Positions 14,951 to 37,307 of a DNA stretch of 43,592 bases are shown here, piece after piece (within the stretch, counting starts at the first letter, position 1; each line of letters starts with the position of its first letter). Source of the stretch: Pseudomonadota bacterium (GTDB taxonomy: Bacteria > Pseudomonadota > Gammaproteobacteria > Xanthomonadales > Xanthomonadaceae); NCBI GenBank assembly GCA_018242465.1, contig JAFEBY010000134.1, positions 1 through 43,592 of the forward strand, given 5' to 3'. The translations under genes and the position numbers were made by a program. The notes under the pieces are model-generated. The model did not search any database. It worked only from the letters and a program-made list of their open reading frames with translations, and had not been told where the DNA came from.

Positions 14951-14980
14951 TGCGCCTGCAGCAGTACCCACACCTGAACC

Positions 14981-15000
14981 GCACGCGCTGCCTCGCGTGC
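14981..15000 (+). other. Hairpin in the xpsN-gspD gap
   Basis: GCACGCG, loop CTGCCT, CGCGTGC: a perfect 7-bp stem not followed by a T-run. It may attenuate or process the transcript between xpsN and gspD. Confidence 0.45.
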
Positions 15001-15074
15001 ATTGATGGTGCGGCCTTCCTATCATGTTCGACTGCGCCGGCACTCATGGCGCGCACCTGCCTGGATCGGAGCGC

Positions 15075-17516: not shown

Positions 17517-17529
17517 TTGCTGTCACCCT

Positions 17530-17560
17530 TTAAATCAAGCCTGAAATGAGTTAAATCAAG
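17530..17560. promoter_or_regulatory. Direct repeat pair upstream of the exported-protein promoter
   Basis: TTAAATCAAG occurs at 17530-17539 and again at 17551-17560. The 21-bp period equals two helical turns, so both copies face the same side of the DNA. The pair lies about 28 bp upstream of the -35. This is a typical layout for an activator dimer site, but the regulator is unknown. Confidence 0.5.
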
Positions 17561-17575
17561 GAGGAATACCTCTTT
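17558..17575 (+). terminator. Weak hairpin terminator after gspD
   Basis: AAGGAGG, loop AATA, CCTCTTT: a 7-bp stem with one G-T pair whose 3' arm ends in TTT. It is 41 nt past the gspD stop. Termination strength looks modest. Confidence 0.45.
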
Positions 17576-17577
17576 GC

Positions 17578-17601
17578 TTACAAAAGGTTGACCTTTTGTA
17601 A
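17578..17601. promoter_or_regulatory. Perfect 24-bp palindromic operator over the -35
   Basis: TTACAAAAGGT, TG, ACCTTTTGTAA: 11-bp perfect arms with a 2-bp centre. The -35 hexamer TTGACC lies across the centre and right arm, so a bound protein would block RNA polymerase. The site is AT-rich in a GC-rich genome. Confidence 0.7.
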
Positions 17602-17616
17602 CTGCCTGCTTAACAT
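17588..17616 (+). promoter_or_regulatory. Strong sigma70-like promoter of the exported-protein gene
   Basis: -35 TTGACC (17588-17593), a 17-nt spacer and -10 TAACAT (17611-17616). The start would be near 17623, leaving a leader of about 173 nt before ATG 17796. Confidence 0.7.
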
Positions 17617-17622
17617 CGGCAA

Positions 17623-17795
17623 ATCCACAAAGCTGGGACCCCTATGAAAATAGCGGTTCCACGCCTGGGACAGTCTCCGCATGCAGGGGCTGAACCACAG
17701 GGGAGTACACACCCGCGAGGGTGGGGACTTTGGGGATATGTGTTCATGTCATGTTTCACGTATATGTTGTCCCACATCCAAGCTTGGAGTTTTAA
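17623..17795 (+). ncRNA. Candidate structured 5' leader RNA
   Basis: Two GNRA-capped hairpins are visible. Hairpin A pairs TGGGACC (17634-17640) with GGTTCCA (17655-17661), has a C/C mismatch, then CTAT/ATAG closed by GAAA. Hairpin B pairs CACCC (17710-17714) with GGGTG (17719-17723) around GCGA. AGTCTC (17672-17677) can pair with GGGACT (17724-17729) and enclose hairpin B. Further on, TCCAAGCTTGGA (17777-17788) is a palindrome covering the ribosome site GGAG. It could be an mRNA-stabilising leader, a riboswitch or a thermosensor. It does not match a riboswitch class that I can recognise with confidence. Confidence 0.5.
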
Positions 17796-19202
17796 ATGAT
17801 GAAGAAGACCACCCTGACCGCAGCCGTCGTGCTCGGTCTGACCCTGTCGGCGAGCTCGTTCGCTGCCAGCTCCCTGAACGGTCCCACCCCCAGCGCCAAC
17901 AACCTCGCCCCCGAAACCATCGCGGCGACCGGCGCTGTTCCCCTGAGCGATACTGGTGCTTCCGGCGCGTGGGACATCAACGCGCAGATCAGCTACTCGC
18001 TGTCGGCGACCGAATTCCGCGCCGCCCGCTTTGAGTGCAGCAACGCCTCGATCGACGCCTCCAAGGTCGTCGTGTCCTCCTCCAGCGCCGGCACCTCCGT
18101 GGGCGTTCCGAACCAGGCCGGCGGCGCCGTCGTGGTTTCGCTGACCCAGGGCGCTACTGCTGGTCTGGCCACCGACACCCTGAAGCTGCACATCAACGCA
18201 GCGGGTGGTGTCACCCTGGCCACCCCGGGTGCGGCCAACTGCACCTACAGCCTGTACACCTCGCCGGCCGATGCGATCAACGCCAATCTGACGCAGCGCA
18301 TCTACACCACCGGTTCGCAGCCGTGGCTGACCTTCGCGCCGACGCTGAGCGTGGTCGCGGGCACCCAGAACACGCAGTACACCGCGTACACCGCCACGCC
18401 GGCGTTCTCCTCGTTCAGCCGCACTTCTCCGGGCGCGCATTTCAGCAATACGGTCGGCATGATGAACTCCTACACGTTCTCCGTGCTGCCGAACTCCTAT
18501 GACCAGGATGGCAACGCGGTCACCACGATTCCGGCGGCCGCCTACATGGCTCTGACGACGCAAGGTCTGGCAACCGGTTCCTCGGCGACCCTGAACACTT
18601 CCTCCACCTGCAGTGCCGCTGCGACCTCGACCTTCACCAATACGGTCAACGGTTTCACCGCGCCGCTGTCGGCTGTCGCTGTGGGCACGCCGTACTACCT
18701 GTGCTACACGACCGTGGGTGGCGCCGCGATCCCGAACGGCGCCTGGACTGCCAATGTGGTTTCTGGCAGCGCCAGCACCAATGGTCTCGCGGCGGGCATG
18801 ATCCAGCAGGATGGCACCACCTGGCAGGCCACTTTGGCCCAGAACCCGAATGGCTACCAGTCGCGCATCGTGATGACCAACATGAGCAACACGGCCGCCA
18901 GCTACAGCCTGAGCCTGATCGGTCCGGACGGTACGGCACAGGTGAGCACCGGCACGCTGCCGGCCAACCGCCAGACGTCGATTCCGACCAACTGGGACGT
19001 GCACGCCCTCGGCGTGAACAACGACCCGAACTCGTTCCGTGCGACGGCCAATGTGTTCGTGACCTCTGGCCCCAACCAGGTCAAGGCCATGTACCAGATC
19101 GTGAACGTGACGACGGGTTCCATCAGCAACTCGCAGATGATCACCGTCGATCCGACCAACACGGCCCTCTTCATCCCGGTTGGTTACGTTCCGGTGTTCT
19201 GA
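17796..19202 (+). CDS. Exported protein of unknown function, probably highly expressed
   Basis: The product is 468 aa. A signal peptide (MMKK start, hydrophobic core, SSFA/A cleavage near residue 23) leads into a Ser/Thr/Ala/Val/Gly/Asn-rich, predicted beta-rich protein with few charges and four cysteines in the mature part (FECS, NCTY, STCS, YLCY). I recognise no family. Codon use is biased: Lys is AAG, Asn mostly AAC and Phe nearly all TTC, as in rplM and rpsI here. A good promoter, a palindromic operator, a folded leader, a GGAG site 6 nt before the ATG and a strong terminator mark it as an independent, regulated and abundant product. Position after the T2SS operon makes it a candidate T2SS substrate or surface-layer protein. 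Function is inference only. Confidence 0.8.
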   Translation: MMKKTTLTAAVVLGLTLSASSFAASSLNGPTPSANNLAPETIAATGAVPLSDTGASGAWDINAQISYSLSATEFRAARFECSNASIDASKVVVSSSSAGTSVGVPNQAGGAVVVSLTQGATAGLATDTLKLHINAAGGVTLATPGAANCTYSLYTSPADAINANLTQRIYTTGSQPWLTFAPTLSVVAGTQNTQYTAYTATPAFSSFSRTSPGAHFSNTVGMMNSYTFSVLPNSYDQDGNAVTTIPAAAYMALTTQGLATGSSATLNTSSTCSAAATSTFTNTVNGFTAPLSAVAVGTPYYLCYTTVGGAAIPNGAWTANVVSGSASTNGLAAGMIQQDGTTWQATLAQNPNGYQSRIVMTNMSNTAASYSLSLIGPDGTAQVSTGTLPANRQTSIPTNWDVHALGVNNDPNSFRATANVFVTSGPNQVKAMYQIVNVTTGSISNSQMITVDPTNTALFIPVGYVPVF

Positions 19203-19322: not shown

Positions 19323-19739
19323 ATGAGCCGATCGATTCCAGTCCGCGCGCTGCTCAAGCGCGCCACGATCACCATCCACCCGGGTGATCCGCTGTCCGAG
19401 GCCTACCGCCTGATGCGCGAGCACGATGTTTCGCAGTTGCCGGTGCTGGAGGGCGACCGCATCGCCGGTATCGTTGACGAGTCGGACATTCTGTTGCACG
19501 TCTATGGCGACTCGAAGCGGTTTTCGGATCCTGTCTCCATCGCCATGGTCACCCGATTGGAATTGACGTCGGCTGATGCATCGCTTGAGACCTTGCTGCC
19601 GATTTTCGAGCGCGGTCATGTCGCGATGATCGCCGAAGGCGGCAAGCTGACCGGGTTGATCACGCGGGTGGATTTGCTGGACTGGCTGAGCAACGCCGGT
19701 GACGTGGGTTATGGCATGAAGTCGTCGGATCTTGACTGA
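19323..19739 (+). CDS. Stand-alone CBS-domain pair protein
   Basis: The product is 138 aa and consists of two CBS domains (about 8-62 and 72-130), a Bateman module that usually binds adenosyl ligands. The sequence recalls the regulatory C-terminus of bacterial cystathionine beta-synthase (DVSQLPVLEGDRIAGIVDESDIL, then GLITRVDLLDWL). No PLP-dependent catalytic part is upstream; a terminator and another gene lie there. In Xanthomonas the LPS locus is bordered by sulfur amino acid genes, so this may be a relic of that border, or an independent sensor. wzm begins 4 nt after its stop, so it may be co-transcribed with the export operon. Confidence 0.82.
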   Translation: MSRSIPVRALLKRATITIHPGDPLSEAYRLMREHDVSQLPVLEGDRIAGIVDESDILLHVYGDSKRFSDPVSIAMVTRLELTSADASLETLLPIFERGHVAMIAEGGKLTGLITRVDLLDWLSNAGDVGYGMKSSDLD

Positions 19740-19743
19740 CCGA

Positions 19744-20568
19744 ATGAACAAACAGTATTCCGCGGCACCTTCGGCATTGTTCTCATCGTTGTGGCGCCAT
19801 CGCGACTTGATCGGGCAATTGTCCCGTCAGGAAATCATCGGACGCTACCGTGGTTCGCTGCTGGGAATGGGCTGGAGTTTCGTCACGCCGCTGCTCATGC
19901 TGCTGATTTACACGTTCGTGTTCAGCGTGGTGTTTGGCGCGCGCTGGGCCGGACTGGAAAAACAGGGGAAGGCGGCCTTCGCCATCGTGCTCTTCCTCGG
20001 CATGTCGGTGTTCTCGATTTTTTCGGAAGTCGTGGTGCGCTCGCCGCGCCTCATCGTCGCCAATTCCAATTATGTCAAGCGCGTCGTGTTCCCGCTGGAG
20101 ATCCTGTCGGTGGTGCAAATGGCCAACGCGCTGTTCCATTTCCTGATCGGCATGGTGGCCTGGCTGATGGCCGCGGGATTCGTCCTCGGTCGCTTGCAGC
20201 CAACGATGGCATTCCTGCCCATGGTGATCGCGCCGTTGGTGCTGGGGACCTTGGGCGTTTCCTGGTTGCTGGCGTCGATCGGCGTCTTCATCCGTGACCT
20301 CGACCAGACCATCACCCTGCTGGTGACGGCGACGCTATTCCTGACGCCGATCTTTTATCCCGTGGAGGCAATCCCTCCGGAATATCGCAAGCTCGTCATG
20401 GTCAATCCACTTGCACAAGTGGTGGAGCAGGCGCGCATGGTGATGATAGACGGACACCTGCCCGGCCTGACGCAGCTGCTGCTGTCGTGGGTCACGGGGC
20501 TGGCGCTGCTCTTCGTCGGATATGCATGGTTCCAGAAAACGCGGGAAGGATTCGCCGATGTCCTCTGA
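19744..20568 (+). CDS. wzm: O-antigen ABC transporter permease Wzm
   Basis: The product is 274 aa, an ABC-2 type permease with about six membrane segments. SRQEIIGRYRGSLLGMGWSFVTPLLML near the N-terminus is the typical Wzm/TagG signature, and FLTPIFYPVEAIPPEYR with NPLAQVVEQAR is the usual C-terminal region. With Wzt it exports lipid-linked O-polysaccharide across the inner membrane. ATG 19744 is preferred over TTG 19732. It overlaps wzt by 11 nt. Confidence 0.94.
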   Translation: MNKQYSAAPSALFSSLWRHRDLIGQLSRQEIIGRYRGSLLGMGWSFVTPLLMLLIYTFVFSVVFGARWAGLEKQGKAAFAIVLFLGMSVFSIFSEVVVRSPRLIVANSNYVKRVVFPLEILSVVQMANALFHFLIGMVAWLMAAGFVLGRLQPTMAFLPMVIAPLVLGTLGVSWLLASIGVFIRDLDQTITLLVTATLFLTPIFYPVEAIPPEYRKLVMVNPLAQVVEQARMVMIDGHLPGLTQLLLSWVTGLALLFVGYAWFQKTREGFADVL

Positions 20569-21928
20569 AGCGGCGGTTTCCCTTCGTGGCATCAGCAAGT
20601 GCTTCCCGATTTACGCCAAGCCGGGGGACCGGTTGCGTCAGTTCCTGTTTCCGCCCGTGGCGCGGGTGGCGGGCGCGAAGGCGCGAAACTATTACGACGA
20701 ATACTGGGCCTTGCGCGACGTGTCGTTCGAGGTTTTCCCTGGTGAGCAGATCGGAATCGTCGGGCGCAACGGCGCAGGCAAATCGACGCTACTGCAAATC
20801 ATCTGCGGCACACTGAAGCCCACTACCGGCACGGTCGATGTGCGAGGGCGCGTCGCGGCGCTCCTGGAGCTTGGCGCTGGCTTCAATCCCGAGCTCACCG
20901 GCGCCGAGAACATCTATCTCAATGGCAGCGTCCTCGGGCTGACGAACGACGAGATCGCCGAACGTTATGACAGCATCGTGGCATTCGCCGACATCCCCGG
21001 GTTCATTGACCAACCGGTCAAACAGTATTCAAGCGGCATGTACATGCGACTGGCATTTGCGGTTGCGGTCCATGTCGAGCCCGACATCCTGGTGGTGGAC
21101 GAAGCGCTTTCGGTCGGCGACGAGGCTTACCAACGGAAATGCCATGCGCGTATCCGCAAACTGCGCGACAACGGCGCGACCATCCTGTTCGTTTCGCATT
21201 CCGCGGGACACGTCACCGAGGTCTGCGATCGCGCGGTGTTGATCGATCGTGGCGAGGTGCTGGCGATGGGGACGCCGAAAAGTGTCGTGTCGCGGTACCA
21301 GAAGTTGTTGTATGCGCGAACCGAGCGCCAGGACGAGATCCGCGCAAGCTTGCTGGATGACTACCGCGGTGGCGTGGGTTCACTCGATACGCCGGCATTG
21401 CCCGCCGCGCGAAGGGCGGTTGCCCAGCCGGGTGGCGACGAAGCCTATTGGGATGCAGGGCTGGTTTCGCAAAGCGTCGTGGATTTTCCCAGCCGGGGAT
21501 GCATCATCAAGGAGCCCGGCATTTTCACGATATCGGGCGAGCGCGTGAACGTGCTGCGTCCCGACGAGGACTATCTCTACAAATATCAGGTCTGCTTCGA
21601 CCGAGACGCGGTAGGGGTGCGCTTCGGCATGATGGTCAAGACCAAGGCAGGCGTCGAACTGGCCGGTTGGGTGAGCCATCCCGAGGACAGTCCGCTGCCG
21701 CATGTCGTGGCGGGCAGCACATACGAGGTTTCCATTCGGTTTCGGAACGTTTTCAACGCGGACACGTATTTCATGAATGCCGGAGTGGCCGGCATGGATG
21801 GCGAACATGAAACGTATCTGGCGCGGGCAGTGGATGTGGTGATGTTCCGGTCGATGCGTGTCGCGGGATCGCTGGCCACCGGGTTCATCAATTTCCAGGG
21901 GCAGGCCAGCTGGGAGGCCGACCGGTGA
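20558..21928 (+). CDS. wzt: O-antigen ABC transporter ATPase Wzt with C-terminal carbohydrate-binding domain
   Basis: The product is 456 aa. The ATPase domain (about 1-255) has Walker A GRNGAGKST (69-77), the signature YSSGMYMRL (157-165) and Walker B ILVVDE (177-182). The remaining 200 residues form an extra beta-rich domain (about 315-456) like Wzt-C of E. coli O9a, which binds the modified non-reducing end of the finished chain. Such a tail implies that export depends on a terminal cap. GGGAAGGA (20543-20550) precedes ATG 20558. The next gene, a sulfotransferase, overlaps as GTGA and is a good candidate for making the cap. Confidence 0.94.
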   Translation: MSSEAAVSLRGISKCFPIYAKPGDRLRQFLFPPVARVAGAKARNYYDEYWALRDVSFEVFPGEQIGIVGRNGAGKSTLLQIICGTLKPTTGTVDVRGRVAALLELGAGFNPELTGAENIYLNGSVLGLTNDEIAERYDSIVAFADIPGFIDQPVKQYSSGMYMRLAFAVAVHVEPDILVVDEALSVGDEAYQRKCHARIRKLRDNGATILFVSHSAGHVTEVCDRAVLIDRGEVLAMGTPKSVVSRYQKLLYARTERQDEIRASLLDDYRGGVGSLDTPALPAARRAVAQPGGDEAYWDAGLVSQSVVDFPSRGCIIKEPGIFTISGERVNVLRPDEDYLYKYQVCFDRDAVGVRFGMMVKTKAGVELAGWVSHPEDSPLPHVVAGSTYEVSIRFRNVFNADTYFMNAGVAGMDGEHETYLARAVDVVMFRSMRVAGSLATGFINFQGQASWEADR

Positions 21929-23211
21929 CGGCAGCTCTGCCAGACCTGGCGCCTCCATCGGGCGTCTTCGTACTCGGCATGCATCGTTCGGGTACTTCCG
22001 CGACCGCGGCCGCGCTTGCCGAATTCGGGTTTGCACTGGGCGATGAGCTGGTGCCAGCCGCCGTCGACAACCCGGAAGGCTACTTCGAACATGCCGATGC
22101 GGTGCGCATCAATGAGGCACTGTTGCACGGCCTCAATAGCGGCTGGGAGGATATCCGCGCTATGCCGCCGGAGTGGCTGCAGTCTGATGCCGCGGGGGAA
22201 GCTGTCGCGGCCATCGGCGAGCGCATGCTGCCGTTCTTCCGCGGACGCATCCCGTGGGCGTTGAAGGATCCGCGGATGTGCCGGGTGTTCCCGTTGTGGC
22301 GGCAGGCATTGGTGGCCAAGGGCATCGCGCCGGCTTGTCTCATTGCCATTCGCCATCCCGATGAAGTCGCCAGCTCGCTTGCACGCCGCGACGGTTTTGC
22401 GGCCGACTACTCGCATGTGTTGTGGCTGCGCCATGTCCTCGAATCACTGCGCGCCGCCGAAGGCTTGCCGTTGGAAGTGGTCGATTACGGCACGTTGGTC
22501 GCCGATCGCGGAAAGGCCTTGCGCGAGGCGCTGGTTCGCCTCGGTTTTTCCGGAGCCGACTTGCCGGTGCGCGATGCGGCGTCCGTGCGTCCCATGTTGA
22601 AACACAATGCCGTCATGGTCGATGGTGGGCTGCGCAGCGCGTGGTCTGCGTTGGCGACACAGGTCCATGGCGATCTGCTTGTGGCGGAGGCGGATTTCAC
22701 CGCGATCCTGCACAGGGCCACGGCGCGATTCGATGCACTGGCGTCGACACAGGGCCTGCCATTGGATGCGGTGGGCGCCATGGTCCGGGCCCGCGAAGAT
22801 GCGGCCCGTGTCATTCGTGATGGCGCGCTCGCGCAGGAAGCGCGTGCGGACAAGTTGCAGGCGCGACTGGACGAGACCGACGGTGTACTCGCACAGGAAC
22901 AGGCGCGGTCGCTGGACCGGTTGCAAGCTGCCCAATCGCTGCGGCAGGTGCTGGATGCCACGCAGTTGGCCTTCGCGGCGGAAGAGCGGCGTTCGCTCGA
23001 GCGATTGCAGGCAGCGGAAGCCCTGCAGACCACACTGGATGCAACGCAAGCGGCGTTCGCGCTCGAGGAGCAGCGATCGATCGCGCGCTTGCACGAGTTG
23101 CAAGCGAGCCAGACCGAATTGCGACACATACAATCGACACGCTGGTGGCGTCTGCGGATAGCGTTGGAGCGGTTGCTGGGGCGTAGCCGGGTACGCGGGG
23201 ACACGCATTGA
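21925..23211 (+). CDS. Sulfotransferase-family protein with C-terminal coiled-coil repeats
   Basis: The product is 428 aa. Residues about 12-260 form a sulfotransferase-like domain: the 5'-phosphosulfate loop GMHRSGTSA (18-26) and a 3'-phosphate motif RHPDEVASS (143-151). It would transfer sulfate from PAPS to a sugar hydroxyl. Residues 315-398 are three tandem 28-residue repeats (LD-A/E-T-x), exactly four heptads each and probably a coiled coil. The end, TRWWRLRIALERLLGRSR, is basic, aromatic and amphipathic and may bind membrane. Start GTG 21925 overlaps wzt; the stop overlaps the next ATG. Domain order resembles WbdD, an O-antigen capping enzyme with a coiled-coil ruler. The acceptor is unknown; other P-loop transferases are possible. 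Confidence 0.78.
   Translation: MTAALPDLAPPSGVFVLGMHRSGTSATAAALAEFGFALGDELVPAAVDNPEGYFEHADAVRINEALLHGLNSGWEDIRAMPPEWLQSDAAGEAVAAIGERMLPFFRGRIPWALKDPRMCRVFPLWRQALVAKGIAPACLIAIRHPDEVASSLARRDGFAADYSHVLWLRHVLESLRAAEGLPLEVVDYGTLVADRGKALREALVRLGFSGADLPVRDAASVRPMLKHNAVMVDGGLRSAWSALATQVHGDLLVAEADFTAILHRATARFDALASTQGLPLDAVGAMVRAREDAARVIRDGALAQEARADKLQARLDETDGVLAQEQARSLDRLQAAQSLRQVLDATQLAFAAEERRSLERLQAAEALQTTLDATQAAFALEEQRSIARLHELQASQTELRHIQSTRWWRLRIALERLLGRSRVRGDTH
22867..23118 (+). repeat. Three 84-bp tandem repeats in the sulfotransferase gene
   Basis: Units lie at 22867-22950, 22951-23034 and 23035-23118. Each starts with CTGGA and encodes 28 residues with matching positions: LD.T at the start, a centre of acidic and basic residues, then RL and a Q/A-rich end. 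DNA identity is partial, so they are old duplications. The unit length keeps both reading frame and heptad phase. Confidence 0.8.
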
Positions 23212-24815
23212 TGGTGATCCGCTGCCAGATCGATTCGATCGTGGTGAGGAACGGCAGGTGTTTCGGTTGGGGTTGGTGTCTCGACCCCGCCCAGCCCATT
23301 GCCGCGCTGGAACTGGAATTTCGGGGTGCACGCGGAAGTCGCGCGACGGTGACCTGCGTTCCCGGTAGCCGCCGGGAGGACGTCGGCACCGATTGGCCGC
23401 GAATCCCCCACGCGATGCACAGCGGCTTCCTGATCCTGGGAGATGTACCCGGGTTGGCCTTGCCCATCGAAGGTGCGCGCGTGGTCATCCGCCTGCGCGA
23501 CGGTACGCACTGTGAGCTCGATCTGCCTCTTCAGGCGCTGGCCGCGGCGGGGTTGGCGCGTGACGGAAGCGGCACGCCACTGTGGACTCGCGCCTTGGCC
23601 AAGCTGCGTCGTGACGGCTTGCGAGCGACGCTGTCGCGCGGTGGAGATCGCGCCCGGGCAGGGTTGGGGCGCATGCGTGCCTGGCCGACACGGATCGCGT
23701 GGTCGCTGCGGAAACCATCGGCGCAGGTCATCTTCGACCATGCCATGGGCGGCGGCGCCAATCGATTCGCGAAAGGACTTGTGGAGCGGCTGGCTGCCGA
23801 GGGCAGGCCGGTGCTGCACGTATCGCCGGTGCTGCATGACTTGCGCTACCAGGTCGCGATGACTTGGCGCGGCGACACCCATGCATGGATGGTCGATGAC
23901 GTGTCCGGCGTGTTGCGCCTGTTCAAGCCAGGGCAATCGATCGATGTCCACGTCAACGAATTGGTGTCGTTCGACGACCCCCTGGCTGTGGTGGAGTGGT
24001 GCGTGTCGCGGCGTGGGAACGCGGGATCGCTGACGGTTTACGTGCACGATTTTTTCGCCGCTTGCCCGGCATGGACCCTGATCGACGCCGATAACCATTT
24101 CTGCGGAATTCCGCTCGACATGCGCGTGTGTGAAACCTGCCTGCCGCGCAATGCAGCCAACACGATGGGCTATCGCGGTCCCGGTATCCCGGCATGGCGC
24201 GCGGCATGGCGGCGATTGCTGGAGCGCGCGGACACCATCGTCGCCTTTTCCGCGGCCTCGGTCTCTCTCCTGCATCGCGCCTATCCAGACCTGAGCGACG
24301 AAGCGGTCCGCATCGAGCCGCATGTCGTCGCGCCGATGACGGTACGCTTCCGCGCGCCGCCCGCGGGAGGCGACATCGTGGTCGGTGTCGCCGGCCACAT
24401 CAGTATTCCCAAAGGCGCGCTGATGCTGAAGGAGATGGCTGCGGTGATCCGTGAGCGTGCGCTGCCGCTGCGGATCGTGGTGTTCGGCACGCTGGAGCAG
24501 CACGACGAAGACGATGGCATCGAGGTCCTCGGGGAATACGCACACGCGGAATTGCCGGCGTTGATGGAGCGTCATGGGGTCTCGCTGGCCTTCCTGCCTT
24601 CGATCTGCGCAGAGACGTTTTCCTTCGTGACCGCCGAATACATGAGCATGGGCGTGCCGACGGCGGTGTTCCCGCAGGGTGCGCCCGCGGAACGCGTTGC
24701 CGGCTATCGTCGCGGGTTGGTGATCAGCAACGTGGATGCTGCGACTGCTGTGCATGAGATAATGGAATTTGCCGCACAGGGTTTCGCGCGGCCGCCTGCC
24801 ACCCGGGAGCCGTAA
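23211..24815 (+). CDS. Glycosyltransferase family 4-like protein with N-terminal accessory domain
   Basis: The product is 534 aa. Residues about 1-115 form a beta-rich accessory domain (GWGWCLDPAQPIAALELEF) of a type seen fused to polysaccharide glycosyltransferases. Residues about 170-520 look like a GT-B enzyme. VYVHDFFAACPAW with a CGIPLD...CETCL cysteine cluster is a pattern I recognise in O-antigen glycosyltransferases, and FLPSICAETFSFVTAEYMSMGVP is the nucleotide-sugar-binding motif with the conserved Glu. Probably cytoplasmic, extending the O-chain. The ATG overlaps the previous TGA (TGATG), and its own stop overlaps the next ATG. Confidence 0.83.
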   Translation: MVIRCQIDSIVVRNGRCFGWGWCLDPAQPIAALELEFRGARGSRATVTCVPGSRREDVGTDWPRIPHAMHSGFLILGDVPGLALPIEGARVVIRLRDGTHCELDLPLQALAAAGLARDGSGTPLWTRALAKLRRDGLRATLSRGGDRARAGLGRMRAWPTRIAWSLRKPSAQVIFDHAMGGGANRFAKGLVERLAAEGRPVLHVSPVLHDLRYQVAMTWRGDTHAWMVDDVSGVLRLFKPGQSIDVHVNELVSFDDPLAVVEWCVSRRGNAGSLTVYVHDFFAACPAWTLIDADNHFCGIPLDMRVCETCLPRNAANTMGYRGPGIPAWRAAWRRLLERADTIVAFSAASVSLLHRAYPDLSDEAVRIEPHVVAPMTVRFRAPPAGGDIVVGVAGHISIPKGALMLKEMAAVIRERALPLRIVVFGTLEQHDEDDGIEVLGEYAHAELPALMERHGVSLAFLPSICAETFSFVTAEYMSMGVPTAVFPQGAPAERVAGYRRGLVISNVDAATAVHEIMEFAAQGFARPPATREP

Positions 24816-25876
24816 TGGGAAAGACCGTTGCCTTCACCTCCGCCGCCACGAACTACCTGCCGAAGGTAAGGAAGCTGTTCGCGTCGCTGCGCCAGCACCA
24901 CCCTGAGTTCGAGATCGTGCTGGCGCTGGCCGACGAGGCCGGCAGCACCGTCGATTTCGAGCGCGAACCGCTGGACCGGGTCGTGACGATCGGCCAGCTG
25001 GACATCCCCGACAAGACCCGCTGGACGTATTTCCATTCCATCGTCGAGCTGGCGACCGCGATCAAGCCGTTCGCACTGATGAAGTTCCTTGACGAGCCGG
25101 GTGTCGACCGCGTGCTGTATTTCGATCCCGACATGGTCCTGTTCGATCGCCTCGACGACATGCTGGGCGCGCTGGACAGCGCCAGCGTGGTGCTGACGCC
25201 GCACCAGACGACACCCGAAACCACGCTCGACGCCATCCGCGACAATGAGATCAGCAGCCTCAAGCACGGCGTTTACAACCTCGGGTTTCTCGGCGTGCGC
25301 CCAACCGCTGAAGGCAAGCGCTTCGCGCGCTGGTGGGCAGACCGCATCTACCATTTCTGCATCGCCGACATTCCCGCCGGGCTGTTCACCGACCAGCGAT
25401 GGATCGATCTCGCGCCGGCGTTCTTCGACGAGGTTTCCATCCTCAAGAGCCCACGCTTCAATGTCGCCACTTGGAACATTTCGACGCGCAACTTCGAGGG
25501 CAGCCGCGAACGGGGCTTCCGCGTCCAGGGATTGCCGCTGGGCTTCTATCATTTCACCGGCTTCGACAGTGGTGCGCACCGGGTGATGGCGCAAAAAAAC
25601 GCGCCAGGCAACGCCGCGCTGATGGAACTGATCGACTGGTACACCGCCGAAGCACAGTTCGACGACCGCGATCCGGCGGCTGCGGTGCGCTGGAAATTCG
25701 GCAGCTATTCCGACGGGACGCCGATCCCGCTGGAGCATCGCCGCCTGTACCGGGCAAGGCCTGACTTGCAGCAGGCGTATCCCGATCCCTTCGCGGCCGG
25801 AAAACCGTCGCTCAAGGTCTGGATGGAAACGCAGGGGCCGCTCGAGCACCCGGAGTACTTTAAAAAAAAAGTCTAA
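24815..25876 (+). CDS. GT-A type glycosyltransferase ending at an A9 tract
   Basis: The product is 353 aa with a nucleotide-diphospho-sugar transferase fold. YFDPDMVLF (about 107-115) is the DxD metal/nucleotide motif, and KHGVYNLGFLGVRP plus TDQRWIDLAPAFF are GT-A acceptor-side elements. It is probably a cytoplasmic O-chain glycosyltransferase. The last codons read TTT AAA AAA AAA GTC TAA, a nine-A run (25862-25870). Adding one A, or a -1 slip, would remove the stop and fuse the protein in frame to the 49-aa ORF that follows. The start overlaps the previous stop (TAATG). Confidence 0.82.
   Translation: MGKTVAFTSAATNYLPKVRKLFASLRQHHPEFEIVLALADEAGSTVDFEREPLDRVVTIGQLDIPDKTRWTYFHSIVELATAIKPFALMKFLDEPGVDRVLYFDPDMVLFDRLDDMLGALDSASVVLTPHQTTPETTLDAIRDNEISSLKHGVYNLGFLGVRPTAEGKRFARWWADRIYHFCIADIPAGLFTDQRWIDLAPAFFDEVSILKSPRFNVATWNISTRNFEGSRERGFRVQGLPLGFYHFTGFDSGAHRVMAQKNAPGNAALMELIDWYTAEAQFDDRDPAAAVRWKFGSYSDGTPIPLEHRRLYRARPDLQQAYPDPFAAGKPSLKVWMETQGPLEHPEYFKKKV
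25862..25870 (+). other. Nine-adenine slippery tract
   Basis: A9 preceded by TTT lies four bases before a stop codon in GC-rich DNA. Slippage to A10, or -1 frameshifting, joins the upstream glycosyltransferase to the downstream small ORF. Confidence 0.8.
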
Positions 25877-26025: not shown

Positions 26026-27225
26026 ATGAAGATCATCGAGGTGCCGACCGAGTGGACTTCCGCTGGACGAGTCTCCGGCCTGTTGCGTGCGATCCTCGCA
26101 GTGCCGGTTTCCGCGGGCAACGCCCTGCGCCTTCGCGTCAGCGTTGACGGACGCCTCGTCAACGAAGAACAGATGGCACGGCACCACGATGGTCGCGTGC
26201 ATGTCAACTTCAATACCCACCTGCTGGAAAACGGTCGCCGCAAGCTTGCAATCGAGGTCGAGTGTGCAAGCGCCATCTATGGGACCGCGACTGAAGTGGA
26301 GGTGGCCAGCACCGGCAAACTGGCGGGTGATGTGCGGGATGCGCTGGTTGCTGCCACTGTACCGGCGGTGTATCCAGGTGATTGCGACAGCAGCATTTAC
26401 CAGCCCGCCGCCAGCTTCGTGAGTTCCTGGATGGATCAACCGGATGCGGAAAGGCATGTCGAACGGATGCTTGCCGCAGGCGAGATCAGTGATGCCGAAG
26501 CGGGTCTGCTCCTCGACTTCCTGCGCGATGGCTTTGTGGTGCTGAACGACAAGCTTCCGGAGGCGATGGTCGCCGCTGCAAACGGCGCGCTCGACAAGGC
26601 TGTCGCGACGTCCTATCAGGGTTACCAGAACGGGTCGAGCCAACGCTTGGAGCAGATGCACGTGTCGTTCCCGGCGATCCGCGATATCTGGCTGCATCCA
26701 CCGATCCATCGCTTTCTGTCGCTGGTGTTCGGTGCCGAATCGCAGCCGTGCCAATCCCTGGTTTACGTCTTTGGCAGTCAGCAGGATGCCCATCAGGACA
26801 CGGTGCACCTGACGCCGTTCCCGGCGGGGATGATGTGTGGCGTGTGGATTGCATTGGAGGATGTCCGCCCGGATTCCGGCGAGCTGGCCGTCTATCCCGG
26901 AAGTCATCGCCTGCCGCGGGTGTACATGAAGGATGCCGGCGCGGCGAAAGTGCGTGGGGACTGGAAGGAGTTCGGCGAAAAAGTGGTGTCGACCTGGCGC
27001 AACTTGCTCAACGGCGGGAAATTTACATCGAAGAAATACCATGCCAAGAAGGGTGACATCTTGGTCTGGCACGAAAACCTGATGCATGAGGGCACCTTGC
27101 GGCGCAACACCGAACTGTCTCGACGCTCGGTGGTGACGCACAATTTCGCCAAGGGCGCCATCGTGTATTACGACTCGTCGGGTGATGTCGGCCATATTCA
27201 CGACCCAAACCACCAGAACCATTGA
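26026..27225 (+). CDS. Phytanoyl-CoA dioxygenase (PhyH) family protein
   Basis: The product is 399 aa. Residues about 160-390 form an Fe(II)/2-oxoglutarate dioxygenase: His256-x-Asp258 (AHQDTVHL), distal His354 (NLMHEG) and Arg366 for 2-oxoglutarate, with PDSGELAVYPGSH typical of PhyH. The first 150 residues are a separate beta-rich domain without a recognised family. No signal peptide, so cytoplasmic. In this operon it may hydroxylate a sugar, lipid carrier or acyl group of the polysaccharide; the substrate is unknown. It starts directly after the small ORF stop, and the lipoprotein gene follows 3 nt after its own stop. Confidence 0.82.
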   Translation: MKIIEVPTEWTSAGRVSGLLRAILAVPVSAGNALRLRVSVDGRLVNEEQMARHHDGRVHVNFNTHLLENGRRKLAIEVECASAIYGTATEVEVASTGKLAGDVRDALVAATVPAVYPGDCDSSIYQPAASFVSSWMDQPDAERHVERMLAAGEISDAEAGLLLDFLRDGFVVLNDKLPEAMVAAANGALDKAVATSYQGYQNGSSQRLEQMHVSFPAIRDIWLHPPIHRFLSLVFGAESQPCQSLVYVFGSQQDAHQDTVHLTPFPAGMMCGVWIALEDVRPDSGELAVYPGSHRLPRVYMKDAGAAKVRGDWKEFGEKVVSTWRNLLNGGKFTSKKYHAKKGDILVWHENLMHEGTLRRNTELSRRSVVTHNFAKGAIVYYDSSGDVGHIHDPNHQNH

Positions 27226-29726: not shown

Positions 29727-30779
29727 ATGCCTGTTTGGCTCGTAACCGGCGGCGCTGGCTTCATCGGCGGCAATTTCGTGCTCGAGGCGGTACGGGATGG
29801 CATCAAGATCGTCAATCTCGACGCCCTGACCTATGCCGGCAACCGCGACACCCTGGCTTCGCTGGATGGGAACCCGAACCACGTTTTTGTCCACGGCGAC
29901 ATCGGTGATCGCGAACTGGTCTCCAGTCTTCTGGCCGAGCATCGTCCCGACGCGGTGGTGAATTTCGCCGCCGAGAGCCATGTCGATCGTTCGATCGACG
30001 GTCCGGCGGCCTTCATCCACACCAATGTGGTGGGGACACTGGGATTGCTCGAAGCGGTACGTGACCACTGGAAGTCGCTGGAAGGCGCGGCACGCGACGG
30101 TTTCCGTTTCCACCACGTCTCCACCGACGAGGTTTACGGCACGCTCGGCGACACCGGACTGTTCACGGAAGAGACGGCCTACGCACCAAACTCGCCATAT
30201 TCGGCCTCCAAGGCGGCATCCGACCACTTGGTGCGCGCGTTCCACCACACCTACGGCTTGCCGGTGCTGACGACCAACTGTTCGAACAACTACGGGCCGT
30301 ATCACTTCCCGGAAAAACTCATTCCGCTGGTGATCGCCAAGGCACTGGCAGGCGAGCCGCTGCCGATTTACGGCGACGGCAAACAGGTGCGCGACTGGTT
30401 GTACGTCGGCGATCATTGCGCGGCAATCCGCAACGTGATCGCCAGGGGCAAGGTGGGTGAAACCTACAACGTGGGCGGCAATGCCGAGAAGCAGAACATC
30501 GAGGTGGTCAAGACCATTTGCGCGCTGCTTGACCAGCGCAAGGCGAAGGCCGATGGTTCGAAGTACGAAACACAAATCATCTACGTGCAGGATCGCCCCG
30601 GGCACGATCGCCGCTACGCCATCGACGCATCCAAGTTGAAGCGCGAACTCGGTTGGGAACCGGCGCACACGTTTGAACAAGGCATCGCCGACACGGTGGA
30701 TTGGTATCTCGCCAACCAGCCGTGGGTGAACCGCGTGCTCGATGGTTCGTATCGACTCGAACGCATCGGCCAGGGCTGA
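29727..30779 (+). CDS. rmlB: dTDP-glucose 4,6-dehydratase
   Basis: The product is 350 aa. It converts dTDP-glucose to dTDP-4-keto-6-deoxyglucose using bound NAD. The Rossmann motif GGAGFIG is at residues 8-14. The catalytic segment STDEVYG and YSASKAASDH (Tyr-x3-Lys) are intact, with NNYGPYHFPEKLIPL and DRPGHDRRYAID further on. First gene of rmlBACD; the gap to rmlA is 9 nt and holds the rmlA ribosome site. Confidence 0.98.
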   Translation: MPVWLVTGGAGFIGGNFVLEAVRDGIKIVNLDALTYAGNRDTLASLDGNPNHVFVHGDIGDRELVSSLLAEHRPDAVVNFAAESHVDRSIDGPAAFIHTNVVGTLGLLEAVRDHWKSLEGAARDGFRFHHVSTDEVYGTLGDTGLFTEETAYAPNSPYSASKAASDHLVRAFHHTYGLPVLTTNCSNNYGPYHFPEKLIPLVIAKALAGEPLPIYGDGKQVRDWLYVGDHCAAIRNVIARGKVGETYNVGGNAEKQNIEVVKTICALLDQRKAKADGSKYETQIIYVQDRPGHDRRYAIDASKLKRELGWEPAHTFEQGIADTVDWYLANQPWVNRVLDGSYRLERIGQG

Positions 30780-30788
30780 GGAGACGAT

Positions 30789-31673
30789 ATGCAACGCAAG
30801 GGCATCATTCTGGCCGGCGGTTCCGGCACGCGCCTGTATCCGATCACCCAGGCGATCAGCAAACAACTGCTGCCGGTCTACGACAAGCCGATGATCTATT
30901 ACCCGTTGAGCGTGCTGATGCTGGCGGGCATCCGTGAAGTGCTGATCATCAACACGCCGCACGAGCAGGCACTGTTCAAGGCATTGCTGGGCGATGGTTC
31001 GCAGTGGGGCATGAGGTTCGAATACGCCGCGCAGCCGAGTCCGGATGGATTGGCGCAGGCCTTCACCATCGGCCGCGATTTCCTTGCCGGCGCACCGAGC
31101 TGCCTGGTGCTGGGCGACAACATCTTCCATGGCCCGGGCCTCACGGCGATGCTCAGGCGCGCCAATGACCGCGAACATGGGGCAACCGTCTTCGGCTACT
31201 GGGTGCAGGATCCGGAGCGCTATGGTGTTGCCGAATTCGATGGCGATGGCAAGGTGGTCGGACTGGAAGAAAAACCGGAGAAACCGCGCTCCAACTACGC
31301 AGTGACCGGATTGTATTTCTATGACGGCCGCGCACCGGAATTCGCGGCGGCGCTGAAGCCGTCGCCCCGTGGCGAATACGAAATCACCGATCTCAACAAA
31401 TGTTACCTGGATGAAGAATCGTTGCATCTCGAGCGGCTCGGTCGCGGTTATGCCTGGCTCGATACCGGAACCCACCAGTCGTTGCTGGAGGCCGGGAATT
31501 ACATCGAAACGATCGAGGCACGCCAGGGCTTGCGCGTAGCCTGCCCGGAGGAGATCGCCTACAACAATGGCTGGATTGATCGCGACCAGCTGTACGCGCT
31601 GGCGAAACCGCTGGCCAAGAACGGATACGGGCAATACCTGATGGCGCTGCCGGAGCGGGGCTACGTCCCGTGA
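30789..31673 (+). CDS. rmlA: Glucose-1-phosphate thymidylyltransferase
   Basis: The product is 294 aa. It makes dTDP-glucose from dTTP and glucose-1-phosphate. [13 protein letters not shown] near the N-terminus is the nucleotide-binding motif, followed by [27 protein letters not shown] and the [20 protein letters not shown] stretch. GAGGAG lies 5-10 nt upstream of the ATG. Its TGA overlaps the rmlC GTG. Confidence 0.98.
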
Positions 31674-32227
31674 AGGTCATTGAGACTGACCTCCCGGGGT
31701 GCTTGGTCTTCGAGCCGCGCGTGTATGGCGACGATCGTGGATTCTTCTACGAGTCGTTCAATGCCGACAAGCTGGCGGCCCACGGCCTCGATTTGCATTG
31801 GAAGCAGGGCAATGTGTCGTCATCGGCGAAAGGCGTGTTGCGCGGATTGCACTACCAATGGCCGAACCCGCAAGGCAAGTTCGTTTCTGTGTTGGAAGGT
31901 GAAGTCTGGGACGTCGCGGTCGACATTCGCCGCGGCTCTCCGACGTTCGGAAAGTGGACCGCGGTCATTCTGAGTGCAGACAACAAGCGACACTTCTGGA
32001 TCCCGCCGGGATTCGCCCATGGCTTCGCGGTGCTGAGCGAGCGCGCAGTGTTCACCTACCTCTGCACTGAAACTTACGATGCCGCAGCCGATACCAGCAT
32101 CCGCTGGGACGACCCGGAACTGGCGATCGACTGGCCGGTGAGCGATCCGTCGCTGTCCGCCAAGGATGCTGTTGCTCCCATGCTGAAGGACATCCCTGTC
32201 GACCGTTTGCCGATGGTTCAGGGCTGA
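31670..32227 (+). CDS. rmlC: dTDP-4-dehydrorhamnose 3,5-epimerase
   Basis: The product is 185 aa, a cupin that epimerises dTDP-4-keto-6-deoxyglucose at C3 and C5. The catalytic GVLRGLHYQ (His of the Asp-His pair), [16 protein letters not shown] and the [16 protein letters not shown] segments are all present. Start GTG 31670 gives [10 protein letters not shown], with GTGA overlap to rmlA. rmlD follows after 3 nt. Confidence 0.97.
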
Positions 32228-32230
32228 ACA

Positions 32231-33118
32231 ATGCGCATCCTGTTGGACGGCGGCAACGGGCAAGTCGGGCACGAATTGCGCCGCAGTCTCGCGTCGTTGG
32301 GCGAGGTCATCGTCACCACGCGTACTGGCGAGCTGGAGGATGGAGCAGCGCTGGCCTGCGATCTGATGCACCCCGGCGCGTTGGCTGCCGTTGTGCGGGG
32401 GACGCAGCCCGATGTCGTCATCAATGCGGCGGCATATACCGCGGTCGACAAGGCCGAGGATCAGCCTGACGCTGCATTTCGCGTCAATGCGGCGGCGGTG
32501 GAGGAATTGGCGAAGGAATGCGCTTTTCGCGGAATCCCGCTGATCCATTACTCCACCGACTATGTATTCGACGGACAGGGCAGTCGCCCCTATCTGCCGG
32601 ACGATGCGACATCGCCGCTGGGGGCCTACGGCGCAAGCAAGCTCGCCGGCGAAGAGGCGATTCGTGCTTCAGGTGCAAGGCATCTGATCCTGCGTACGGC
32701 TTGGGTGTATGGCTTGCATGGCCACAATTTCCTCAAGACCATGTTGCGCGTCGGCGGCGAACGCGACGAACTGCGCGTGGTGTCCGACCAGATCGGTTCT
32801 CCAACACCGGCGTGGCTGATCGCCGACGTCACTGCGGCGATCCTGCGACAGGGCCTCGGTGGAGGCGGCACGCATCACCTGGTGGCTGCGGGGCAGACCA
32901 GCTGGCACGGATTCGCCGAGGCGATCTTCGCCGAGGCGGTCGCGGCTGGAATGCTTGCACGCAGGCCGGTCGTCCATGCCATCCCGACCCGCGACTACCC
33001 GACGCCCGCGCGTCGTCCGGCGTGGTCGGTGTTGGATACCACAAGCCTTCGCCAAGCCTATGGCGTGCCGCTACCCGATTGGCGCGAGGCGCTGCACCGG
33101 ACCATCGCCAAAGGCTGA
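32231..33118 (+). CDS. rmlD: dTDP-4-dehydrorhamnose reductase
   Basis: The product is 295 aa. It reduces dTDP-4-keto-L-rhamnose to dTDP-L-rhamnose with NAD(P)H. The Rossmann loop reads GGNGQVG (where GANGQLG is common). INAAAYTAVDKAE, HYSTDYVFDG and YGASKLAGE (Tyr-x3-Lys) are typical. The C-terminal substrate part has RPAWSVLDTTSLRQAYG. It completes the rhamnose pathway; a separate promoter-like site precedes the next gene. Confidence 0.97.
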   Translation: MRILLDGGNGQVGHELRRSLASLGEVIVTTRTGELEDGAALACDLMHPGALAAVVRGTQPDVVINAAAYTAVDKAEDQPDAAFRVNAAAVEELAKECAFRGIPLIHYSTDYVFDGQGSRPYLPDDATSPLGAYGASKLAGEEAIRASGARHLILRTAWVYGLHGHNFLKTMLRVGGERDELRVVSDQIGSPTPAWLIADVTAAILRQGLGGGGTHHLVAAGQTSWHGFAEAIFAEAVAAGMLARRPVVHAIPTRDYPTPARRPAWSVLDTTSLRQAYGVPLPDWREALHRTIAKG

Positions 33119-34600: not shown

Positions 34601-35502
34601 CGGTGAAGGCGACGATCCTCGACCGGCTCGAAGCCGACAGCATCCGCATCCTCCGCGAGGTCGCGGCCTGCTTTCGCAATCCTGTGCTGTTGTACTCGAT
34701 TGGCAAGGACAGCTCCGTGCTGATGCACCTGATGCGCAAGGCATTCTGGCCAGCGCAGGCACCGATTCCGTTGCTTCATGTCGATACCGGCTGGAAGTTT
34801 GCCGAGATGATTGCGTTTCGCGATCGCCGCGTCGTCGAAGAAGGCATGGTCCTGCACGTGCACATGAACCCGGAGGGGATCGCGCAGGGCGTCGGGCCGA
34901 TCACGCATGGCGCAACAGTGCACACCGACGTGATGAAGACACAGGCATTGCGTCAGGCGCTGGAGAAGTTCGGATTCGACGCTGCGATCGGCGGCGCCCG
35001 TCGCGACGAGGAGAAGTCGCGCGCCAAGGAGCGGGTGTTCTCGTTCCGCAACGCGCTGCATCGTTGGGACCCACGCCAGCAGCGCCCCGAGCTGTGGCAT
35101 CTGTGGAATACGCGCCTTGGCCCCGGCGAAAGCGTGCGCGTGTTCCCGTTGTCCGACTGGACGGAACTGGATGTCTGGGAATACATCGCGCGTGAAGGTA
35201 TCGAAGTGCCCACGTTGTATTTCGCGAAGGCGCGTCCGGTTGTCGAACGCGCTGGCGCCCTGATCATGGTGGATGACGCGCGCCTGCCGCTTGCGCCCGG
35301 GGAGAATCCAGAGATGCGCAAGGTGCGCTTCCGCACGCTGGGTTGCTATCCGCTGACCGGCGCAATCGAATCGGATGCTGAAACGCTGGATGAGGTGATT
35401 GCGGAATTGCGCGCATCGCGCCTGTCGGAGCGCCAGGGCCGTATGATCGACCACGATCCCTCGGCGTCGATGGAACGCAAGAAGCGCGAGGGCTATTTCT
35501 GA
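34597..35502 (+). CDS. cysD: Sulfate adenylyltransferase subunit 2
   Basis: The product is 301 aa, the small subunit of ATP sulfurylase. With CysN it makes adenosine 5'-phosphosulfate from sulfate and ATP. The PP-loop [13 protein letters not shown] is near residue 35, followed by [23 protein letters not shown] and [15 protein letters not shown]. The GTG at 34597 overlaps the xanB stop, so it is co-transcribed with polysaccharide genes rather than with cysteine-biosynthesis genes such as cysH or cysI, none of which are nearby. The next ATG overlaps its TGA. Confidence 0.97.
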
Positions 35503-37307
35503 TGGGGACGAACTCGCACCCATTGTTGCGTTTCATCACTTGCGGCAGCGTCGACGATGGCAAGAGCACGTTGATCGGCCGCCTGCTGCACGATACCGGT
35601 TCGCTCAGCGACGACCAGCGCGGTGTGGCCGGGGAAACGCCGGATTTCGCCGCACTGCTCGATGGCCTGGAGGACGAACGCGCCCAGGGCATCACCATCG
35701 ACGTCGCCTATCGCCAATTCGCGACACCGCGCCGGCGTTTCATCGTTGCCGATTGCCCGGGCCACGAGCAATACACCCGCAACATGGCGACTGGCGCGTC
35801 CACCGCCGATCTCGCCGTGGTGCTGGTCGATGCGCGCAAGGGCTTGTTGACGCAGACGTTGCGCCACACCGCGATCGTGTCGATGTTCGGCGTGCGCCGG
35901 GTGGTGCTCGCGGTCAACAAAATGGACGCGGTGGAGTGGTCGCGAGATGTATTCGAGCAGATCGCATCCGACTATCGCGATCACCTGCAGCAGCTTCATG
36001 CCGGATTGTCGTTCGACGCAATCCCGCTGTCGGGTCTGACAGGCGACAACGTGGTCGAGTCATCAATGCGGACGACGTGGTATTCCGGTCCGACGCTGTT
36101 GCAATTGCTGGAATCCGCGGAGATCGAGCCGGCCGCCACCGGGGACGCGTTGCGCATGCCAGTGCAGTGGGTGAACCGCCTGTCCGAGGGGCGCGGCTAT
36201 GCCGGGACGATCGCGGCTGGAACCCTCGCCATCGGTGATCGCGTGCGCGTGGAGCCTGCGGGAACCGAAGCTGCGGTCGCGCGCCTGTTCGGGCTGGATC
36301 GCATGCTTGAAACGGCTGCCGTGGACACTGCAATCACCGTGGTGCTCGATCGCGAGCTCGATGTCGCACGCGGCGACGTGTTGTGTGCAGCCGATGCGCC
36401 GGTGCCGACCAGCGACCAGTTCTCGACGCGCGTGCTGTGGATGGATGGCGAGCCGCTGCTTCCCGGACGTTCCTACACCATGCAACTCGGGACCTGCAGT
36501 GTGCGCGCCACGCTCACGTCGCTCAAGCATCGGCTGGATATCGGGAGTGGTGCGCATCTCTCCGCCACGCAGTTGCGCATGAACGAGATCGGCGCCTGTG
36601 AATGGCATCTCGACCATGCGGTCGCGTTTGAGTCCTTCGCCGACAATCGCGAGCTTGGCGGCTTCATCCTGGTTGATCGCCACGGCAATGCGACGGCGGG
36701 TGCCGGGGTCATCGATTTCGCATTGCGTCGTTCCGGGAACCTGCACTGGCAATCACTACAGGTCGATCGCGATGCGCGCGCGCGCATCAAGGGCCACCGT
36801 GGTCGTTGCATCTGGCTGACGGGCCTGTCCGGCGCGGGAAAGTCGACCATCGCCGACGCCGTCGAGGCGCAACTCAACCTGCGAGGCACGCACACCTATC
36901 TGCTCGATGGCGATAACGTGCGCCATGGCCTCAATCGCGACCTCGGTTTCACCGCCGCAGATCGCGTCGAGAACATCCGTCGCGTCGCCGAAGTTGCGCG
37001 ATTGATGGTGGATGCCGGGTTGGTGGTTGTGGTCAGCTTCATATCGCCGTTCCGTGCCGAGCGCGAGATGGCGCGCGAACTGTTCGCACCGGGTGAATTC
37101 CTGGAAGTGTTCGTCGATACGCCGCTGGCGGTCGCGGAATCGCGTGATCCCAAAGGCCTGTACGCCAAGGCGCGTGCCGGCAAATTGCCGAACTTCACCG
37201 GCATCGACTCACCGTATGAGCCGCCGCGACGTCCCGAGTTGCATCTCGACGCCAGCCGCCAGTCGGTGGCCGAAAGTGCGCGCGCCATCCTTGATCTGCT
37301 CGACTGA
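35502..37307 (+). CDS. cysNC: Bifunctional sulfate adenylyltransferase subunit 1 / APS kinase (CysN-CysC fusion)
   Basis: The product is 601 aa. Residues about 1-415 are the CysN GTPase: GSVDDGKST (15-23), [17 protein letters not shown] and NKMD. Residues about 425-601 are APS kinase: Walker [10 protein letters not shown] (441-449), [21 protein letters not shown] and the lid [10 protein letters not shown]. The product of CysD plus this fusion is PAPS, the sulfate donor of sulfotransferases. The fusion is like rhizobial NodQ and Xanthomonas RaxQ, both linked to sulfation. No cysteine-pathway reductase is adjacent. The start overlaps the cysD stop (TGATG). Confidence 0.96.

Follow-up and report, generated by a model that had tools for sequence, protein, structure and literature searches.

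What ends an O-antigen chain, and how does the exporter recognize a finished one, when the gene behind wzt encodes a protein that resembles a sulfotransferase? The question is raised by a stretch of 43,592 nucleotides (contig JAFEBY010000134.1, assembly GCA_018242465.1; hereafter the window) from a bacterium of the Xanthomonadaceae, in which the ATP-binding cassette (ABC) exporter genes wzm and wzt are followed by a gene for a 428-amino-acid (aa) protein with a sulfotransferase-like domain and a long predicted coil. A sequence-only reading of this DNA had proposed that the protein caps the O-chain with sulfate, that its coil acts as a length ruler and that the C-terminal domain of Wzt reads the cap. 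Following this up computationally, we consider it fairly probable that the protein is the chain terminator of an ABC-dependent O-antigen, and a sulfate-capping member of the class in which a coiled-coil ruler works together with Wzt-gated export.

According to passages of PMC11231755, described terminators of this class add methyl, methyl-phosphate or 3-deoxy-D-manno-oct-2-ulosonic acid (Kdo). WbdD of Escherichia coli O9a and Klebsiella pneumoniae O3 is, like the window protein, a stand-alone enzyme with a long C-terminal coil, and its cluster, again like the window, has an ABC exporter whose Wzt carries a carbohydrate-binding domain (passages of PMC3482155 and PMC11231755). WbdD is a methyltransferase-kinase, whereas the window protein is sulfotransferase-like, and the likeness is one of description rather than of direct comparison. 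In WbbB (K. pneumoniae O12) and ORF6 (O7) the terminator, coil and polymerase form one chain and the caps are beta-Kdo or methyl-phosphate (passages of PMC11231755), whereas the window has separate glycosyltransferase genes. No sulfotransferase with a coil has been described as an O-antigen terminator or ruler in the parts of the open-licence literature searched, and within those bounds the proposed ruler is new.

A predicted sulfotransferase behind wzt

The AlphaFold2 model of the 428-aa protein (mean pLDDT, the predicted local distance difference test, 87.4) consists of a globular domain, a long helix and a last helix, which is the arrangement that the sequence-only reading had expected of a structure prediction; the model begins at residue 2, and its numbering is that of the protein minus 1. 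When this model was compared with the PDB by Foldseek, the top 28 chains were all sulfotransferases, counting two chains of Teg12 that we take to be such. Twelve matches had E ≤ 0.001 (best 1.5e-5), and enzymes with bound 3′-phosphoadenosine 5′-phosphate (PAP) were among the best. The predicted fold of the catalytic domain is shared with tyrosylprotein sulfotransferase and the olefin-synthase sulfotransferase (3ap3, 4gox), from which the protein differs in sequence (14–20% identity in the 12 matches) and which act on other substrates.

Conserved residues were sought in two alignments, one of ten sequences from a whole-protein search (A1) and one of 62 sequences, most of them chosen by the P-loop motif (A2). 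MHRSGTS, E55, K114, P116, R117, R143 and S151 are invariant in A1; E55, K114, P116, R143 and S151 remain so in A2, where R117 is kept in at least 90%, and where MHRSGTS is also invariant in rows largely picked by this very motif. The R-P-EVA-SL stretch of the A1 profile, in the region of the second motif, aligns with the SULT enzyme 1cjm. We take GMHRSGTS to be the 5′-phosphosulfate-binding loop and RHPDEVASS the 3′-phosphate motif, as in sulfotransferase enzymology generally, and E55 is presumably a candidate for the catalytic base. With both motifs, on this assumption of their roles, placed on a sulfotransferase fold, the N-terminal domain is a predicted sulfotransferase, as had been suggested for the gene after wzt. 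The methyltransferase and/or kinase catalytic domain by which the WbdD family is defined is absent from it.

Several points weigh against so direct an assignment. The Pfam match to Sulfotransfer_3 (E 0.002) reaches 18.9 bits against a curated cut-off of 27, and all Pfam matches of the protein (weak ones to Sulfotransfer_3, Sulfotransfer_4 and zf-C2H2_9) fall below their cut-offs. A sequence search of the PDB returned no chain at E ≤ 1. The TM-scores (template modelling scores) of the 12 Foldseek matches are modest, at 0.29–0.34 by query and 0.42–0.48 by target length, and for this reason we regard the match as one to a distant fold relative.

Gene order within the window and beyond

The genes are tightly packed, at the positions given before (Table 1): wzt starts 11 bases before the end of wzm, the stop of wzt and the GTG start of the sulfotransferase gene share four bases (GTGA, 21925–21928), and the stop of that gene shares one base with the ATG of the downstream glycosyltransferase gene.

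Table 1. Features of the window that bear on O-antigen termination and export
Feature	Position	Strand	Basis or remark
wzm, ABC-2 permease of the O-antigen exporter	19732..20568	+	PF01061, E 9.3e-20
wzt, ATPase with C-terminal carbohydrate-binding domain	20558..21928	+	ABC_tran, E 1.3e-23; Wzt_C, E 3.4e-17
Wzt_C domain (residues 312–445), presumed cap reader	21491..21892	+	PF14524, E 3.4e-17
Sulfotransferase-coil protein, 428 aa, candidate chain terminator/ruler	21925..23211	+	AlphaFold2, Foldseek
GMHRSGTS (residues 18–25), presumed 5′-phosphosulfate-binding loop	21976..21999	+	MHRSGTS invariant in A1
RHPDEVASS (residues 143–151), presumed 3′-phosphate-binding motif	22351..22377	+	R143, S151 invariant in A1 and A2
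Single long helix (residues 281–404), predicted coil	22765..23136	+	AlphaFold2, model helix 280–403
28-residue units (residues 325–352, 353–380, 381–408)	22897..23148	+	third unit weak
Basic tail with Trp and the last helix, a possible end at the membrane or the polymerase	23137..23208	+	model helix 405–422
Glycosyltransferase group 1 gene	23211..24815	+	PF13692, E 1.3e-9
Protein like glycosyltransferase family 8 (GT8)	24815..25876	+	PF01501, E 0.036, weak match
rmlBACD, dTDP-rhamnose synthesis	29727..33118	+	
cysD and cysNC, synthesis of 3′-phosphoadenosine 5′-phosphosulfate (PAPS)	34618..37307	+	

The extra C-terminal domain that had been noticed on Wzt is a Wzt_C domain whose match lies above the Pfam cut-off, so that a carbohydrate-binding domain is present. 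The predicted structure of Wzt (pLDDT 84.9) is closest over its full length, C-terminal domain included, to WzmWzt of Aquifex aeolicus (8dku_A, 438 columns, E 1.7e-38, about 30% identity); searched alone against the PDB, Wzt_C gave only a weak match to strictosidine synthase (E 0.011).

Relatives of the sulfotransferase were sought by a scan for GMHRSGTS-type sequences, which gave at least 586 stretches, 575 of them confirmed, from which the best 80 were kept. The succession of wzt and sulfotransferase, for which the sequence-only reading had proposed a genome search, recurs across phyla: in 18 of these 80 loci the sulfotransferase gene is the immediate downstream neighbour of a wzt whose Wzt_C is homologous, and in five further loci Wzt ends about 0.8–1.1 kb upstream of it. 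A wzm homologue precedes 16 of the 18 adjacent loci (L062 begins inside wzt). The 18 include Lysobacteraceae, Rhodanobacteraceae, Sulfuricella, Lamprocystis, Desulfomonile, Desulfatibacillum and a Bacillota bin, and the five near loci include Myxococcota and Campylobacteraceae bins; bins can be misassigned. Starting from Wzt_C instead, 79 class-wide loci (of 81 non-window rows, G258 and G300 left out) contained one strong and one weak match to this sulfotransferase family. Rows L198, L207 and L062 have no usable Wzt frame and were set aside before rows were counted. A gene downstream of wzt in L153 has, by eye, sulfotransferase-like features as well, and in two loci an additional P-loop protein with a GGSGTRAV motif is encoded between wzt and the sulfotransferase (L047:9235–10011, L080:3185–4021).

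Not every locus conforms. The sulfotransferase stands beside an ATPase without Wzt_C in L067 and L093, and in L043 and L102 this Wzt_C subtype accompanies a sulfotransferase without a coil. In Aeromonas salmonicida the wbsalmo cluster has the order wzt, sulfotransferase, wbbB, and ORF19, a 216-aa sulfotransferase domain, follows wzt much as in the window (passages of PMC4483657). At that length we infer it to be too short for a coil comparable to ours, and in the same passages its authors report no matching residue in the O-antigen, which likewise speaks against sulfate capping.

A long predicted helix with a 28-residue repeat

In the model the long helix runs unbroken for 124 residues, which at 0.15 nm per residue corresponds to about 18.6 nm. 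Three 28-residue coiled-coil repeats had been claimed for it. The repeat is real, with 19 of 28 identities at lag 28 (p = 0.002 in a heptad-preserving shuffle) and two good copies; the third is weak, sharing 11 of 28 residues by eye. A profile search of the PDB with the coil included returned mainly coiled-coil matches. The heptad itself is borderline in the window protein, and this counts against a coiled coil: a period of 3.5 is found at p 0.004–0.007 with strong hydrophobics only and at p of about 0.1 with alanine half-weighted, so that the outcome hinges on the weighting of alanine, and a scan of periods over 149 residues gave p 0.48. The signal is clearer across the family, where a period of 3.50–3.56 at p ≤ 0.05 is seen in 11 of the 18 proteins encoded directly behind wzt. 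Lag-28 repeats reach p ≤ 0.01 in 14 of 56 proline-free stretches of at least 90 residues (from 81 proteins), to be compared with 5, 4, 0 and 6 stretches at lags 14, 21, 35 and 42; duplication of four heptads thus seems, from these sequences, to be a common route by which the rod changes length.

The tail beyond the helix is basic and aromatic, as had been described (net charge +5 across residues 401–428, Trp included). An amphipathic membrane tail, which we had considered, is not supported, as the hydrophobic moment found here is unexceptional (p = 0.52). What separates the catalytic domain from the possible membrane or polymerase end is this predicted helix with its borderline heptad signal.

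It is very improbable, in our view, that PAPS chemistry has been lost from the domain, or that its substrate is a lipid or a protein, and that the long helix is not a ruler. The sub-threshold Pfam score, the modest fold scores and the borderline heptad would fit such a protein, yet the five residues invariant in all 62 aligned sequences, together with R117, and the PAP-bound enzymes among the best fold matches argue against this reading.

For seven of the 18 adjacent proteins the open frame spans at least 1000 aa. Beyond the coil, six of the seven carry glycosyltransferase domains by Pfam, as WbbB and ORF6 carry their polymerases, and L062 carries none. In the class as described in passages of PMC11231755, the terminator lies at the coil end distal from the polymerase, and the layout of the six agrees with this rule. 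A methyltransferase is present as well in two fusions, L054 and L083, and might itself be their terminator, which tells against the sulfotransferase in that role.

The Wzt C-terminal domain varies with the enzyme

The tree built from 101 Wzt_C domains has a clade of 23 rows (support 98 in the Shimodaira–Hasegawa-like approximate likelihood ratio test), made up of 19 of the 20 adjacent rows, three of five near rows and L155. The subtype is marked by Y339, Y341, Y343, R355, E367 and R423; at least four of these six residues occur in 19 of 20 adjacent, four of five near and two of 81 other rows, a signature that only describes the clade, since its residues were picked from it. We do not accept the tree by itself as proof of coupling: almost the same rows come together in the tree of the ATPases, with a weaker support of 81, so that part of the pattern is accounted for by common ancestry of the block as a whole, and from trees alone coupling is not to be told from joint inheritance.

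The argument is therefore carried by a comparison at matched ATPase identity, with identities measured to the window's proteins and loci that were not selected on Wzt_C. At 41–58% ATPase identity, Wzt_C is 39, 37, 35, 35 and 13% identical in five adjacent rows, 26 and 28% in two near rows and 7–26% in 86 others; four of the five adjacent rows thus stand above the 86 (Mann–Whitney p = 0.002; the rows are not independent). A narrower band of 44–58%, which omits the deviating row L202 by one per cent, sets four of four adjacent rows against 80 others. Above 58%, Wzt_C identity is 40–48% in 14 adjacent rows and 40% in L155, the sole other row, and the test consequently rests on the lower band. Two rows contradict the pattern: in L202 the Wzt_C next to the sulfotransferase is unrelated (13%), and L155 carries this Wzt_C, yet no such sulfotransferase was found over the stretch examined. 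On balance, coupling of the Wzt C-terminal domain to the sulfotransferase is supported at the level of sequence.

Inheritance as a block would also suit a scheme in which cap and chain length are the work of a different enzyme from the cluster, the sulfotransferase-coil protein being an accessory modifier in the same operon. Potential candidates are a PhyH-type dioxygenase and glycosyltransferases in the window cluster, and the C-terminal methyltransferases of the two homologous fusions point the same way. We regard this scheme as quite unlikely, given that Pfam on 28 window proteins found no methyltransferase or kinase between wzm and manC (the two minus-strand genes at 28006–29611 not included) and that no second gene in that interval has a proline-free stretch of more than 100 residues. 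Among the 16 genes from wzm to cysNC, such stretches occur only in the sulfotransferase-coil gene and in cysNC, the GTPase-kinase.

The slot after wzt in the same genus

Of 17 genomes of the genus, 14, the window's included, encode a Wzt-like ATPase, and the neighbourhoods of the other 13 were examined. A recognisable Wzt_C is present on the ATPase in ten (not in G014, G012 and G001). Directly after wzt, one of these ten, G016, has a sulfotransferase-coil protein. Five have other coil enzymes in this slot: a pyruvyltransferase with a coil and two glycosyltransferase domains in G003, a methyltransferase with a coil and glycosyltransferases in G011, and a coil followed by a methyltransferase in G002, G004 and G006. 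The remaining four have something without a coil, namely an FkbM methyltransferase (G013), an acyltransferase (G007) or a 308-aa protein (G005, G009). In G009 the next two genes encode small proteins that resemble sulfotransferases, of which one scores above the Pfam cut-off and the other under it. The coils of the six coil genomes are long, proline-free and of period 3.5 at p 0.002–0.032, except that G006 gives p 0.084 in one of two weightings.

Wzt_C follows the slot. Its identity to that of the window is 35% in G016, 10–16% in the methyltransferase- or pyruvyltransferase-coil genomes and 14–22% in those without a coil, at ATPase identities of 41–56% across the set. The CBS gene or the secretion-ATPase-like gene that lies upstream of wzm in the window also precedes wzm in G003, G004, G006, G007 and G016; neither was found in the stretches examined of G002, G011 and G013, G005 has a weak CBS match only and G009 none. 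Since the sulfotransferase-coil protein sits where some related bacteria keep other chain-ending enzymes, it probably stops the chains and labels them with sulfate.

These sister genomes bear on a different possibility, that sulfate is placed on internal residues of the repeat unit while the coil is a scaffold at the polymerase and the Wzt C-terminal domain reads another feature of the chain. There is precedent in an ABC-exported capsule with linked PAPS genes, which carries its sulfate in the repeat unit (passages of PMC11766843), and the sulfotransferases beside ATPases without a reader domain (L067, L093) would be natural under it. Internal sulfation nevertheless appears unlikely to us, because it would leave aside that the slot holds methyltransferase- or pyruvyltransferase-coil enzymes in five sister genomes and that Wzt_C changes with the slot enzyme at comparable ATPase identity.

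One protein directly after wzt (L229:4023–8048) combines a pyruvyltransferase, a coil-like stretch and two glycosyltransferase domains, and by its sequence is a candidate pyruvyl-capping ruler; PMC10629545, on a K. pneumoniae O antigen, names pyruvyltransferase 16 times and may bear on the G003 case.

A possible mechanism

Sulfate capping of the chain end, the reading that we prefer, may be pictured as follows. The N-terminal domain would transfer sulfate from PAPS to the lipid-linked chain at its non-reducing end, the terminus rather than internal residues being the acceptor. The 124-residue helix, as an oligomeric coil, would space the active site from the membrane-side polymerase, and only chains long enough to reach that site would be capped. 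The Wzt C-terminal domain would then recognise the sulfated end and license export. In its working the protein would resemble a ruler of the WbdD type, but one whose cap chemistry differs. Of the earlier interpretation, comparisons of Wzt_C, sister genomes and fusions support the architecture, in which a long coil bears an enzyme at one end and the adjoining gene encodes a Wzt that has a carbohydrate-binding domain, as well as the coupling of this domain to the sulfotransferase; the sulfate cap, its reading and the setting of chain length by the coil belong to the proposed mechanism.

More broadly, and tentatively, a coil enzyme (sulfotransferase, methyltransferase or pyruvyltransferase) and its Wzt reader could form interchangeable cap-and-reader modules, exchanged as a pair inside one genus and, in several of its genomes, next to shared upstream landmark genes, and the loci described here could represent an unrecognised sulfate-capped class that extends across several phyla and in which the ruler frequently lengthens by duplication of 28 residues (four heptads); we hold this wider proposal to be somewhat short of an even chance. 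Were sulfate the cap, it would be a charged end group of another kind than methyl, methyl-phosphate or Kdo, and O-antigen length control would be tied to sulfur metabolism. It would also provide a rule by which cap chemistry might be predicted from genomes, using the gene after wzt and the Wzt_C subtype.

Supply of PAPS

The cysDNC genes of the window are a second copy in its genome. We considered these PAPS genes as specific support for sulfation and rejected them: cysDNC also stands beside rml/manC in relatives without this sulfotransferase, and in four same-genus genomes (G004, G006, G014, G015) manC, cysDNC and coaTA occur together with no match to it at E ≤ 1e-5. We accordingly count cysDNC as PAPS supply only. 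In six of the 18 adjacent loci (G061, G063, G064, G065, G066, G074) a cysD gene follows at 10–43 kb downstream, on the same strand of the same contig, and in the near locus L057 one lies 7 kb upstream. In four stretches examined it is close to an etfQO gene, as in the window, so that the downstream cysD may be a landmark too. Three other Sulfotransfer_3 genes above the cut-off are found elsewhere in the genome and are possible PAPS users, a further point against reserving this supply for capping.

Neighbouring genes

The glycosyltransferase gene directly downstream has a homologue after the sulfotransferase of L071, and in L026, L031, L032, L039, L054 and L071 homologues of the GT8-like protein lie 1.3–3.1 kb beyond the point at which the sulfotransferase match begins. 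The PhyH-type enzyme, a 2-oxoglutarate dioxygenase, is encoded at 26026–27225 inside the O-antigen cluster. A DNA-level search for tandem repeats found none, and a PHROGs search gave no match.

The stretch 6690–19202, ahead of wzm, contains type II secretion genes (E, F, K and a secretin), and the window genome has a second secretin at another site. Elsewhere, a secretin gene ends about 0.1–0.2 kb before the sulfotransferase-coil match in L025, L028, L033 and L040, with no Wzt detected in the flanking stretch examined. In the stretch 6690–19202, after the secretion genes and shortly upstream of wzm, the window encodes an apparently secreted 468-aa protein without a Pfam match, in which 5.8% of residues are charged and 56% are Ser, Thr, Ala, Gly or Asn; its homologues lie 5–7 kb upstream of the sulfotransferase in L026, L039, L068 and L071. 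In A. salmonicida, surface-layer secretion genes sit between wzm and wzt (passages of PMC4483657), and by analogy a surface layer anchored on the O-antigen is possible in the bacterium of the window.

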